Position numbers and translations under genes: made by a program. From contig NC_009662.1 of the NCBI RefSeq assembly GCF_000010325.1, positions 1,012,501 through 1,076,500 on the forward strand: a stretch of 64,000 bases of DNA. The letters run 5' to 3'. Origin of the DNA: Nitratiruptor sp. SB155-2 (lineage in GTDB: Bacteria; Campylobacterota; Campylobacteria; Campylobacterales; Nitratiruptoraceae). Shown one piece after another: positions 20,174 through 23,984 of this stretch. Position 1 is the first letter of the stretch. Each line of letters starts with the position of its first letter. Below the pieces are notes generated by a model, which was given only the letters and a program-made list of their open reading frames with translations, had not been told where the DNA came from and searched no databases.

Positions 20174-20217
20174 TTAAATAAGACTAAATTACTCCTATTT
20201 ATCTTCCTTAAATAAGA
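20174..20217 (+). repeat. Direct repeat TTAAATAAGA, two copies 34 bp apart
   Basis: TTAAATAAGA occurs at 20174-20183 and again at 20208-20217 in the gap before sufB. The second copy contributes the left arm of the perfect palindrome at 20210-20234. The spacing is about three helical turns, so the upstream copy could be a second, weaker half-site for the same regulator. Only the sequence match supports this. Confidence 0.5.
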
Positions 20218-20234
20218 TAAATTTTATCTTATTT
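20210..20234. promoter_or_regulatory. 25-bp perfect palindrome before the suf operon, Fur-box-like operator
   Basis: The left arm AAATAAGATAAA (20210-20221) and right arm TTTATCTTATTT (20223-20234) are exact inverted complements around a single T. The core GATAAA-T-TTTATC has the 6-1-6 geometry of a Fur box (GATAAT-n-ATTATC), with five of seven bases matching in each 7-base arm. It lies directly upstream of a possible extended -10 element, where a bound repressor would block polymerase. Iron or Fe-S control of suf genes is common in bacteria. Which regulator binds here (Fur, an Rrf2-type protein or another) is inference. Confidence 0.7.
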
Positions 20235-20235
20235 G

Positions 20236-20244
20236 TGTTACATT
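20236..20244 (+). promoter_or_regulatory. Possible extended -10 element of the suf operon promoter
   Basis: TGTTACATT fits an extended -10 (TGn followed by a TATAAT-like hexamer) 29 bases before the sufB ATG. It abuts the palindrome at 20210-20234, which would cover the -35 position. Confidence 0.4.
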
Positions 20245-20273
20245 ACGAATAGAACACTTATGAAGGAAACGCC

Positions 20274-21707
20274 ATGGGAATGGAAAAGGTCGACAAAATA
20301 ATCAACTCCGACTATGAACTCGGATTTGAAATCGACGTAGAAGAGGAGAAGGCTCCTCCTGGTTTGACTGAAGATACGATTAAATTCATCTCATCGAAAA
20401 AGAACGAGCCAGAATGGATGTTGGAACTTCGTCTCAAAGCTTTTCATGCTTGGCAAAAAATGGAAGAACCCAGATGGGCGAAGGTAACCTATCCTCCAAT
20501 TGATTACCAGTCGATCAGCTACTGGGCTGCTCCCAAAAAAGCGCTTGAGAGCCTAGATGAAGTAGATCCAGAGATTTTACGAGCCTATGAAAAACTTGGA
20601 ATCCCACTTGAAGAGCAAAAAGCGCTTGCAGGGGTCGCAGTGGACGCTGTTTTGGATTCAGTTTCTGTAAAAACGACATTTGTAGAGGAACTGAACAAAC
20701 TTGGAATCATTTTTTGCTCTATCTCTGAAGCGATCAGAGATTATCCTGATCTTGTAAAGAAGTATATGTTTAGTGTCGTTCCGATGACAGACAACTACTT
20801 TGCGGCACTCAACTCAGCAGTATTCAGTGATGGGACATTTGTCTACATTCCAAAAGGCGTCAAGTGCCCAATGGAACTTTCTACCTACTTTCGAATCAAT
20901 GCACAAAACACGGGACAGTTTGAAAGAACCCTCATTATCGCCGATGAGGGGAGCTATGTAAGCTACAACGAAGGGTGTTCTGCTCCAAGCAGGGATGAAA
21001 ACCAGCTCCATGCAGCTGTGGTGGAACTCATCGCTCACAAAGATGCGCACATCAACTATTCCACGATTCAGAACTGGTATCCTGGCGATATCGAAGGACG
21101 GGGTGGTATCTATAATTTCGTGACAAAACGAGGTCTTTGTGAAGGAGAAAACTCCAAAATTACTTGGACACAGGTTGAAACGGGATCCGTCATCACTTGG
21201 AAATATCCAAGCTGTATCCTAAAAGGTGACAACTCCGTTGGAGAGTTCTACTCCGTAGCAATCACCCGTCTTGCACAGCAGGCCGATACGGGTACGAAAA
21301 TGATTCACATGGGCAAAAACACAAAAAGCGTCATCATCTCCAAAGGAATTTCAGCGCAAAAGGGACAAAACAGTTACAGGGGACTTGTCAAAATTCACGA
21401 AAATGCCAAGGGGGCTAAAAACTTTAGTGAATGTGATTCGCTGCTCATAGGGGACAGTTGTGGGGCACATACTTTTCCTTATTTGGAAAGCAAATGTGCC
21501 AATGCAGAGGTTGAACACGAAGCAACCACAAGTAAAATCAGTGAAGAACAGCTTTTCTATCTTCGCCAAAGGGGTGTAAGCGAAGAGGATGCCGTGAGTA
21601 TGATCGTTCATGGATTCTGTAAAGATGTTTTGAGTAAACTCCCGATGGAGTTTGCCGTTGAAGCAAAAGCATTACTAGATTTAACATTGGAAGGAAGTGT
21701 AGGATGA
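20274..21707 (+). CDS. sufB: Fe-S cluster scaffold protein SufB
   Basis: SufB forms the SufBC2D scaffold on which iron-sulfur clusters are built before transfer to target proteins. The 477-residue protein carries the family core: [46 protein letters not shown], the beta-helix region with [15 protein letters not shown], and the C-terminal [20 protein letters not shown]. It is first in a four-gene operon with overlapping starts. GAAGGAAAC lies before the ATG at 20274, and a second ATG six bases on is also possible. Expression is likely controlled through the palindrome just upstream. Confidence 0.97.
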
Positions 21708-22453
21708 GTATGATGAAAATAAATAATCTTCATGCAAAAATAGGTGAAAAAGAGATTTTAAAAGGAATAGATTTAGAACTTTTCAAAGGAAAAGTTCATG
21801 CAATTATGGGTCCAAACGGTGCAGGGAAATCGACACTTTCCAAAACAATAGTCGGTCATCCGGATGTAGAGGTCACAGAAGGCGAAATTCTGTATAAAGG
21901 CAAAAATATCGTAGAGATGGAACCGGAGGAGCGAGCGTTAGAGGGTATTTTTATGTCTTTTCAGCATCCTGTAGAAATACCAGGGGTAAATAACGCCTAT
22001 TTTCTTAGAACTGCACTCAATGCCAAAAGAAAACATCAAGGACTCAAGCCTTTGAATGCAGCAGAATTTTTGAGACTCTTAAAAGAGAAAATAAAAGAAC
22101 TCGGCATGCGTGAAGAGATGATCCACAGAAGCCTCAATGAGGGCTTTAGCGGCGGGGAGAAAAAACTGAACGAAATTCTGCAGATGGAGATTTTGGAACC
22201 CGATTTCGTTATTCTCGATGAGATCGATTCCGGTCTCGATATTGATGCCCTTAAAAAAGTAAGTGAAGCTATTAATAATATGCGTGATGAAAACAGAACA
22301 TTCATGATCATCACACACTATAGAAAGATTTTGGATTATATCGAGCCCGATTATGTCCATGTCCTAAAAAATGGGAAAGTACTTCGAACAGGTGGTCTTG
22401 AAATCGTTGACGCTCTTGAAAAAGAGGGATATAAAATATTTGGGGAAGAGTGA
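21704..22453 (+). CDS. sufC: Fe-S cluster assembly ATPase SufC
   Basis: SufC is the ABC-type ATPase that drives conformational change in the SufBCD scaffold. The 249-residue protein has Walker A GPNGAGKS at residues 36-43, the SufC-type Q-loop [12 protein letters not shown], signature FSGGEKK near residue 150, Walker [16 protein letters not shown], and the switch His in MIITHY. It has no membrane domain partner other than the SufB/SufD pair encoded on each side. Its start overlaps the sufB stop by four bases, and its stop overlaps sufD. Confidence 0.97.
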
Positions 22454-23592
22454 TGAAGATAGCCAACATCAATCTGGAAGAGTTTCAAGAGAAAAAGGCT
22501 CTTGTACAAAAACTCAAATCAATGGGAATGCCAACACCAAAAACGGAGCATTACCGTTATTTTGGTATTAAACCTATTTTGGAAAAAGAGTATACATTTC
22601 ATCAGCCACCTGCGCAAAAGATCGAAATAGCCGATTATGTGGAAATTATTGATGGAACGGTAACAAAAGCTCCTAAAAAGGTGTATGTAGAGCTTCTCAA
22701 AAATCCAAAAATTGATGACAGTCACTATGACCAGGTCTATTACATCAACCATCTTTTGGTAGACAAAACGATTCATCTGGATATCGAAGAGGATTGTGAA
22801 TTTAAAATCGTTCATAAATTCACAAAATCCAACACATTCGTACCATATAGAATCAAAATAACCGTTCATCCTGGAATCAATGCCAAGATTCGAGAAGACT
22901 ATCTTGTTCTCAGTGACGAGTCGCTCTATTTGTACGGATTTGATATCCATTTAGGCAAAAACAGTGTTTTACAGCTCGTTCAAAACAGAACGACAAACTT
23001 TGCAAACTTTGCACAGATTGCTCCACACAGTGTTCGATGTGATATGAGTAGTGAATTCAGACTTTTTACATTCGATTTTGGAAATGCAAAAACGTTACAC
23101 AACTATCATATCACGCTAGAAGAGAACGCCGCAGCAAACGCCAATCACGTACTATTCGCAAAAGAAAAAGCGCGTATAGGAAACACTTTTCACATCGAAA
23201 ACAGAGGGAAAGACTCAAGAACAGTTCAAATGGCGAGAAATATCCTCAAAGACGAAGCCAGAGGAATATTTGATGGCTTGTTGATCGTGAAAAATCCTGC
23301 AAAATATAGTTCCATCTACCAAGACTCCAAAACAATCTTGCTCAACGATGGTGCATATATGGTGAGTAAGCCTCAGATGGAAATCTATACAGAATATATT
23401 CTTGAAGCGACCCACGGTTCGACAACAGGACATCTGGATGAAGAGGCGCTCTTTTATCTTCGCCAAAGAGGCATTGCTGAAGCGGATGCAAAAGAGATGT
23501 TGGTACTGAGTTTTCTCAATGAGATTTTTGAAAAGTTAAATGATGAAGAGATAAAAGAGGAATTTATCAAACTCTATGAGGAGAATCGATGA
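22450..23592 (+). CDS. sufD: Fe-S cluster scaffold protein SufD
   Basis: SufD is the SufB paralogue that completes the SufBC2D complex and is needed for iron entry. The 380-residue chain has the SufB/SufD beta-helix domain (about residues 90-330) and the hallmark C-terminal motif [22 protein letters not shown]. It is shorter than E. coli SufD (about 423), mainly in the N-terminal helical region. It starts in an ATGATG overlap with sufC and ends overlapping the next gene (ATGA). Identity relative to SufB is clear from the size and the STTGHLDEE motif. Confidence 0.94.
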   Translation: MMKIANINLEEFQEKKALVQKLKSMGMPTPKTEHYRYFGIKPILEKEYTFHQPPAQKIEIADYVEIIDGTVTKAPKKVYVELLKNPKIDDSHYDQVYYINHLLVDKTIHLDIEEDCEFKIVHKFTKSNTFVPYRIKITVHPGINAKIREDYLVLSDESLYLYGFDIHLGKNSVLQLVQNRTTNFANFAQIAPHSVRCDMSSEFRLFTFDFGNAKTLHNYHITLEENAAANANHVLFAKEKARIGNTFHIENRGKDSRTVQMARNILKDEARGIFDGLLIVKNPAKYSSIYQDSKTILLNDGAYMVSKPQMEIYTEYILEATHGSTTGHLDEEALFYLRQRGIAEADAKEMLVLSFLNEIFEKLNDEEIKEEFIKLYEENR

Positions 23593-23984
23593 ATCTTGAA
23601 GAAAAAGAGATTGAAGTAGATAATGACGGAATTGAAGATATCGAGGATCATGAAAAGAAGTATGGAAAACCCGAAGAGATTAAACAAGAGATCATTAAAT
23701 ACCTAAAAACGATTTATGATCCGGAGATTCCAGTCAATATCTACGATCTTGGTCTTATATACGATTTGAAACTCAAAAGAAGACCAGACGGCTATGAAGC
23801 CATTATCACAATGACGCTTACAAGCGTCGTCTGTCCTGTAGGAGAGAGTATTGTCGAAATGGTCAAAAATATTGCCAATAAAATAGACGGTGTAGCGGAA
23901 GTGGATGTAAAACTCACCTTCGATCCCCCTTGGGACAAAAGCAAAATGAGCGATGAAGCGAAACTGGTACTAGGGATGATGTAG
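23589..23984 (+). CDS. sufT: SufT-like MIP18/DUF59 family protein
   Basis: MIP18-family proteins act late in Fe-S cluster maturation and carriage. The 131-residue protein starts with an acidic, probably disordered tail (residues 1-30). The DUF59 domain follows: IYDPEIPVNIYDLGLIYDLKL, then MTLTSVVCPVGESIVEMVKN with its conserved Cys, and KLTFDPPWDKSKMSDEAKLVLG. Its place as fourth gene of the suf operon supports the SufT role. The expected cysteine desulfurase (SufS) and sulfur carrier (SufU/SufE) are not in this operon, so sulfur must be supplied by genes elsewhere. Confidence 0.88.
   Translation: MNLEEKEIEVDNDGIEDIEDHEKKYGKPEEIKQEIIKYLKTIYDPEIPVNIYDLGLIYDLKLKRRPDGYEAIITMTLTSVVCPVGESIVEMVKNIANKIDGVAEVDVKLTFDPPWDKSKMSDEAKLVLGMM

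Follow-up and report, generated by a model that had tools for sequence, protein, structure and literature searches.

Which regulator reads the conspicuous palindrome upstream of the sufB gene of Nitratiruptor sp. SB155-2, and how far does its control extend within the class Campylobacteria? The 64-kb stretch of DNA analysed here (the window) harbours the 25-bp palindrome AAATAAGATAAA-T-TTTATCTTATTT at positions 20210-20234, which is exact on both arms, as an earlier sequence-only reading had observed. No other perfect inverted repeat in the window has 12-bp arms and a spacer of 0 or 1, and given the window composition approximately 0.013 perfect 12+12 palindromes per 64 kb are expected by chance. 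The direct repeat TTAAATAAGA described at 20174 and 20208, 34 bp apart, is likewise present; what had been missed is that its upstream copy lies at the left end of another complete operator, the arms of which agree at 10 of 12 positions (hand count). Both palindromes upstream of suf represent one operator type, AAATARGA-N9-TCYTATTT, and the region is organised as follows.

20176..20200, unstranded: operator 1, AAATAAGACTAAATTACTCCTATTT, an imperfect 25-bp palindrome with an IscR-type-1/RisR-like GAC half-core
20210..20234, unstranded: operator 2, AAATAAGATAAATTTTATCTTATTT, a perfect 25-bp palindrome
20236..20244, + strand: putative extended -10 of the suf promoter, TGTTACATT, proposed from the sequence and its same-genus recurrence
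20274..21707, + strand: sufB (Pfam SUFBD_core, 1.2e-79)
21704..22453, + strand: sufC, an ABC-type ATPase gene (Pfam ABC_tran) between sufB and sufD
22450..23592, + strand: sufD (Pfam SUFBD_core, 1.2e-45)
23589..23984, + strand: SufT-like FeS_assembly_P gene (PF01883, 1.6e-12), overlapping the end of sufD and last of the putative operon

The operators are thus followed by sufB, sufC, sufD and the SufT-like gene, in this order. The extended -10 said to adjoin the palindrome holds up as a putative motif, separated from it by 1 base, which four of five same-genus genomes share as TGnTACATT, the fifth (G278) having an altered version. A general sigma-70 scan of the region, which requires a -35 hexamer, found nothing. 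If transcription starts near 20251, as we infer, operator 2 spans about -41 to -17. Judged by eye, a -10-like hexamer follows the operator end by 4 bp at suf (TACATT), sufE (TATATT) and tpx (TATAAT).

On a 25-bp matrix the two suf operators, both part of its training set, score 30.1 and 30.6; elsewhere in the window no place exceeds 7.2, and the reversed window reaches 9.6 at best. Across the five same-genus genomes 21 of the 25 columns of operator 2 are invariant, compared with 17 of the 80 other columns of a 130-bp stretch (the counts leave out the rows of G052 and G257, which have a wrong start codon). Operator 1 shows just 5 of 25 invariant columns, because G278 carries no copy at that place, which is occupied also in G029, G031 and G013.

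SufB was found in 44 of 298 genomes of the class, and the 400 bp upstream of sufB were scanned with a matrix built from five non-suf sites of the Nitratiruptor genome; the matrices used for the various scans do not share all training sites or pseudocounts. A site reaching 14 bits, a threshold set by eye after the first scans, precedes sufB in 42 of the 44 genomes (misses: G010 and G130), and in G190 and G287 it lies 310 bp upstream. The upstream region outscores all 60 of its own dinucleotide shuffles in 42 of 44 genomes as well, but the two sets differ: G030 falls short on the shuffles, G130 on the threshold and G010 on both. In a separate collection, 12 of 16 usable sufB records (L051-L066, mostly from Sulfurovum, Nitratifractor and other Campylobacterota, one labelled “bacterium”; L067 is without upstream sequence) reach 14 bits, three score 12.8-13.7 and one yields nothing, and a single one of the remaining 63 records, the base composition of which is unmatched, reaches 14 bits.

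The same type of site stands before iscS. Using a seven-site matrix, we found it in 41 of 46 genomes of eleven families with a clear Rrf2 orthologue, the misses being G026, G036 (with just 62 bp upstream), G045, G062 and G210, and in none of 22 genomes of family f2 (probably Helicobacteraceae) and none of six of family f5. In family f3, presumably Campylobacteraceae, the operator precedes iscS in 17 of 21 genomes. The input comprised 78 NifU loci, from which L214, L244 and L266 (no iscS) and L256 (16 bp upstream) were dropped before counting; whole-locus scans of these four show no strong site, and their inclusion changes the counts to 41/48 and 0/24. All but one of the 46 genomes (G073) are without a SufB match, and G224 and G257 carry operators before both sufB and iscS. 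In 38 of the 41 cases the iscS site sits 11-43 bp upstream of the start codon, which suits repression. For C. jejuni, PMC4257069 describes iscS and nifU as co-transcribed and a functional Suf system as missing. Outside this input, the NifU-N gene of Nitratiruptor (L239) and the second NifU copy of G233 (L238) have no site.

A lack of further copies near iron or Fe-S genes would have counted against the sequence-only reading, but the Nitratiruptor genome clearly contains such copies, at sufE-, SOR-, nfu- and mrp-type genes among others. Pattern searches place the operator before SufE-like, desulfoferrodoxin/superoxide-reductase-like (SOR), thiol peroxidase (tpx) and napA genes. It also precedes nfu-, Mrp/ApbC-, ThiC- and ThiG-type genes (assigned by Pfam on the relatives' copies), spermidine synthase-like and ferredoxin-like genes (named by eye) and an Rrf2-family gene (AAATAGGAGAAATTTAGTATAATTT). 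The tpx product passes its NCBIfam cut-off (227 vs 123 bits); SufE (62.9 vs 160 bits), the SOR iron domain (55 vs 61.9 bits) and a truncated piece of NapA (716 vs 904 bits) bear first-ranked NCBIfam names below cut-off. A further site, scoring 15.0 at C1:1841874, has no obvious Fe-S link. Genome-wide, a loose pattern with up to two mismatches gave 101 matches and the reversed pattern 94; such matches are mostly noise, and therefore only scored sites were interpreted, the loci covered from this search being its first 30. In the napA/fmdE-like intergenic region (L005 at about 1501-1525; C1:1829733-1829757) the Rrf2-type site is accompanied by two FNR-like boxes, TTGATTTATATCAA and TTGATTTTGGTCAA, and nap may be jointly controlled by Rrf2-type and FNR-like sites.

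Six relatives of the same family (f1) were read, G013, G029, G031, G056, G257 and G278, with G052 left out; the stretches were picked around pattern matches, and target genes were identified by eye or through Pfam, run on a single copy. Among the matches listed, the operator precedes mrp and napA in all six, SOR and tpx in all save G029, thiG in G013, G031, G257 and G278, nfu in G013, G029 and G031, sufE in G013 and G031, and acsA in G029 and G031. G056 has no SufB match and carries the operator before iscS instead. Several other loci of these and further genomes feature the site as well. In G257 it precedes a DegP/HtrA-like protease and a 370-aa protein (L307:84-108 and 1547-1571), and acetyl-CoA synthetase-like genes follow it in G029, G031 and G224 (L296, L299, L384). 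A small protein of about 115 aa with a CGPPEPMVNAM motif, one copy of which has no Pfam match, is encoded downstream of an operator in G013, G257, G073 and G224 (L290:1498-1842, L308:1597-1938, L354, L388), followed in G013 and G257 by a membrane-protein-like ORF.

Outside the family, a zero-mismatch pattern was applied to 18 genomes and genes were named by eye; the reversed pattern had no match in 16 of these and one each in two f5 genomes. Sites were found before mrp (G206, G009, G027), tpx (G012, G009, G027, G073, G224), SOR (G138, G224), cytochrome c peroxidase-like genes (G126, G224), napA (G206), ferredoxin-like genes (G138, G224), iscS (G224) and, weakly, a SodB-like gene (G011), and several stand before genes without an evident Fe-S link, e.g., in G025, G122 and G138. 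G055 has no zero-mismatch hit, yet a site in its iscS upstream region. Within f5, sites precede tpx (G006) and SOR (G028) and none was found at iscS (L355, L356, L378, L379, L380); this family has a more distant Rrf2 protein and possibly a narrowed regulon. Of the f2 genomes, G021 has no hit and G005 one that scores below 12. PMC12567157 reports a joint fall of tpx, sodB, iscU and nifS and a rise of napA in bile-exposed Campylobacter hepaticus, a response that may or may not reflect the proposed regulon.

The candidate regulator is encoded elsewhere in the Nitratiruptor genome.

C1:1146029-1146427: rrf2, encoding P0001 (133 aa), unlinked to suf

P0001 belongs to the Rrf2 superfamily (TIGR00738, 112.3 bits at a cut-off of 73.3; PF02082, 107.9 bits at a cut-off of 30) and fits none of the named equivalogs tested: it scores 71.9 bits against the IscR model TIGR02010 (cut-off 207.55), and the NCBIfam models for other members of the superfamily match it below cut-off, i.e., CymR (39.9/195), NsrR (40.7/182), RirA (54/193) and suf_reg_Xantho (67.7/110.65). 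By sequence, the nearest solved structures are the Rrf2-family regulator 6y45 (RsrR) and relatives of IscR. Matches to P0001 at E <=1e-6 occur in 220 of the 298 class genomes (58 genomes without a match have no individual entry in the search listing), including all 44 with SufB. Sixteen of the 22 f2 genomes in the iscS scan lack a match and six have weak ones (E 3e-7 to 4e-12); the f5 proteins are more distant, with listed E values of 5e-22 to 3e-32, and f3 orthologues share roughly 48-56% identity with P0001. Three cysteines spaced C-x6-C-x7-C are invariant in all 29 orthologues examined, out of 30 loci (the start-motif filter passed over L169). Upstream of rrf2 the operator occurs in 7 of 8 f1 genomes, including one that belongs to the training set, and in just 12 of the 29 orthologue loci overall.

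Taken together, we propose that the suf palindromes are operators of P0001, an IscR/RisR-like, Fe-S-sensing Rrf2 repressor that is nearly class-wide; binding, cluster and direction of control are predicted from sequence, and we assign this reading a probability of about 0.8. The suggestion that the palindrome is the site of an Fe-S-sensing regulator undescribed in this phylum is thus supported by the target genes, by conservation and by co-occurrence with one Rrf2 orthologue, and the sensing itself is part of the prediction. A dimeric winged-helix regulator of the Rrf2 family would occupy the two 25-bp operators. As long as clusters are plentiful, it would hold a cluster on the three invariant cysteines and bind over the promoter, and the holo-regulator would repress sufBCD-sufT, sufE, nfu, mrp, the superoxide reductase gene, tpx, nap and its own gene. 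Upon loss of clusters, be it through iron shortage, oxidants or high demand, the regulator would leave the DNA and the target genes would be induced. In relatives without suf, the same regulator and operator would govern iscS-nifU.

It is conceivable, if unlikely, that the Rrf2 protein binds these sites and activates suf, in the manner of apo-IscR on E. coli suf, the second operator serving graded or dual control. Four of five same-genus genomes have the suf operators paired at a distance of 34-35 bp, and several f7 genomes possess a second, more distant site, both of which would fit such an arrangement. However, operator 2 adjoins the -10 and covers the -35 region, and several other targets have their operator end 3-36 bp upstream of the start codon, a repressor position; moreover, PMC9973013 describes RisR as a repressor of both isc and suf.

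Somewhat less probable still is that another regulator of similar distribution binds the operator, for example a second Rrf2-family protein, P0002 (L007:1438-1857; C1:773767-774108), which scores 86.5 bits on the rrf2_super model and ranks nearest to CymR in NCBIfam (71.6 bits at a cut-off of 195). Co-occurrence alone does not single out one protein, as there are few independent losses, chiefly in f2. Among the five same-genus genomes, though, a second Rrf2 match at E 1e-6 is confined to Nitratiruptor sp. SB155-2 and its near twin G029, and five relatives with suf operators (G013, G031, G278, G052, G257) have one such match only. The P0001 gene carries an operator in its promoter, and the P0002 locus is devoid of a site (best score -3.2); P0002 was rejected as the operator's regulator on these grounds.

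The sequence-only reading had also considered a variant Fur site. The Fur box is a 7-1-7 palindrome, TGATAAT-N-ATTATCA, and iron-loaded Fur (or PerR) might repress suf from a divergent box, the GATAAA-T-TTTATC core; operator 2 agrees with the Fur box at 10 of 14 positions, and the Nitratiruptor genome has two Fur-family genes. Operator 1, by contrast, agrees at 6 of 14 positions only (both hand counts). A profile of 83 sites yields AAATARGA-N9-TCYTATTT with 25 bits: G7, A8, T18 and C19 are kept at 98-100%, the outer AAATAR flanks are strongly constrained, and position 9 is T, C or G, a C at this place giving the core GAC-N7-GTC. What is conserved is therefore GA/TC plus the outer flanks rather than a Fur half-site, and the conserved 7-1-7 core was not found in the profile. 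Furthermore, each of the 25 genomes tested has Fur-family genes, including 15 f2 genomes without the site at iscS, and three one-mismatch TGATAAT-type sites of the Nitratiruptor genome lie near other genes, none recognised as iron genes. A Fur or PerR box was accordingly rejected and is highly improbable. The Fur-box-like search also returned one 15-mer (TGAAAATCATTATGA or its complement) six times, at C1:198903, 247841, 473179, 654194, 731222 and 1144861; L131 contains a matching transposase-like ORF, as does L006 beside rrf2, and the six occurrences may represent copies of an insertion sequence instead of Fur sites. That the palindrome is a chance product or a transcription terminator in the AT-rich gap upstream of sufB (72% of 114 bp) is scarcely credible, as the operator recurs at sufB in most SufB genomes, and the terminator reading was discarded after a scan found no terminator-like site.

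An Rrf2-type repressor of Fe-S homeostasis, as proposed here for P0001, is a known kind of regulator. Closely similar is RisR of Myxococcus xanthus (Rrf2 subgroup IS6), which, according to PMC9973013, serves as one Fe-S regulator for both suf and isc operons and binds T(t/g)GAC-N7-GTCC(t/a) with AT-rich flanks over the promoter; the GAC-N7-GTC spacing of the RisR footprint is shared by the operators with C at position 9. RisR also has three conserved cysteines, but spaced C-x9-C-x5-C (C92, C102, C108) instead of C-x6-C-x7-C, and its gene resides inside the suf operon, whereas rrf2 is unlinked to suf here; the predicted regulon further includes the SOR, tpx, mrp, nfu and nap genes. The type 1 site of IscR from E. 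coli and Pseudomonas, ATASYYGACTRWWWYAGTCRRSTAT, is a 25-bp dyad with a GACT/AGTC core, too, and has GAC-N7-GTC in common with operators carrying C at position 9, yet its outer flanks read ATASYY rather than AAATAR (PMC3899308). IscR likewise binds its own promoter and targets Fe-S assembly genes; unlike it, P0001 is not encoded beside isc or suf and stays below the IscR cut-off, and the C-x5-C-x5-C arrangement of its cluster cysteines (C92, C98, C104; PMC4055776) does not occur in P0001. What sets this branch apart is the cysteine spacing, the operator flanks and the position of its gene away from suf.

In Campylobacter jejuni, Cj0883c is annotated as an Rrf2-family regulator, like P0001 (PMC11202532), and PMC11140963 lists Rrf2 as a temperature-dependent protein and gives no targets there. 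In the open-licence literature searched, we found no Fe-S-sensing regulator of Fe-S assembly in Campylobacterota, and in the review PMC6682613 neither “Rrf2” nor “IscR” occurs. Where other papers contain these words, three of them use them for a cDNA kit, for the genes rrf1-3 or in a cited title.

In most Campylobacteria, Fe-S homeostasis probably has a single Rrf2-type Fe-S sensor as its master switch, with the operator kept while SUF and IscS-NifU were exchanged, f2 having lost regulator and operator alike and f5 having retained such control for oxidant-defence genes only. If this is true, Campylobacter-like genomes gain a so far undescribed Fe-S-sensing repressor, and its near class-wide regulon would explain how microaerophiles, given the fragility of their Fe-S enzymes, tie the building of clusters to their protection against superoxide and peroxide. 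The operator would, moreover, clearly exemplify a control site that persists after the system under its control has been replaced.
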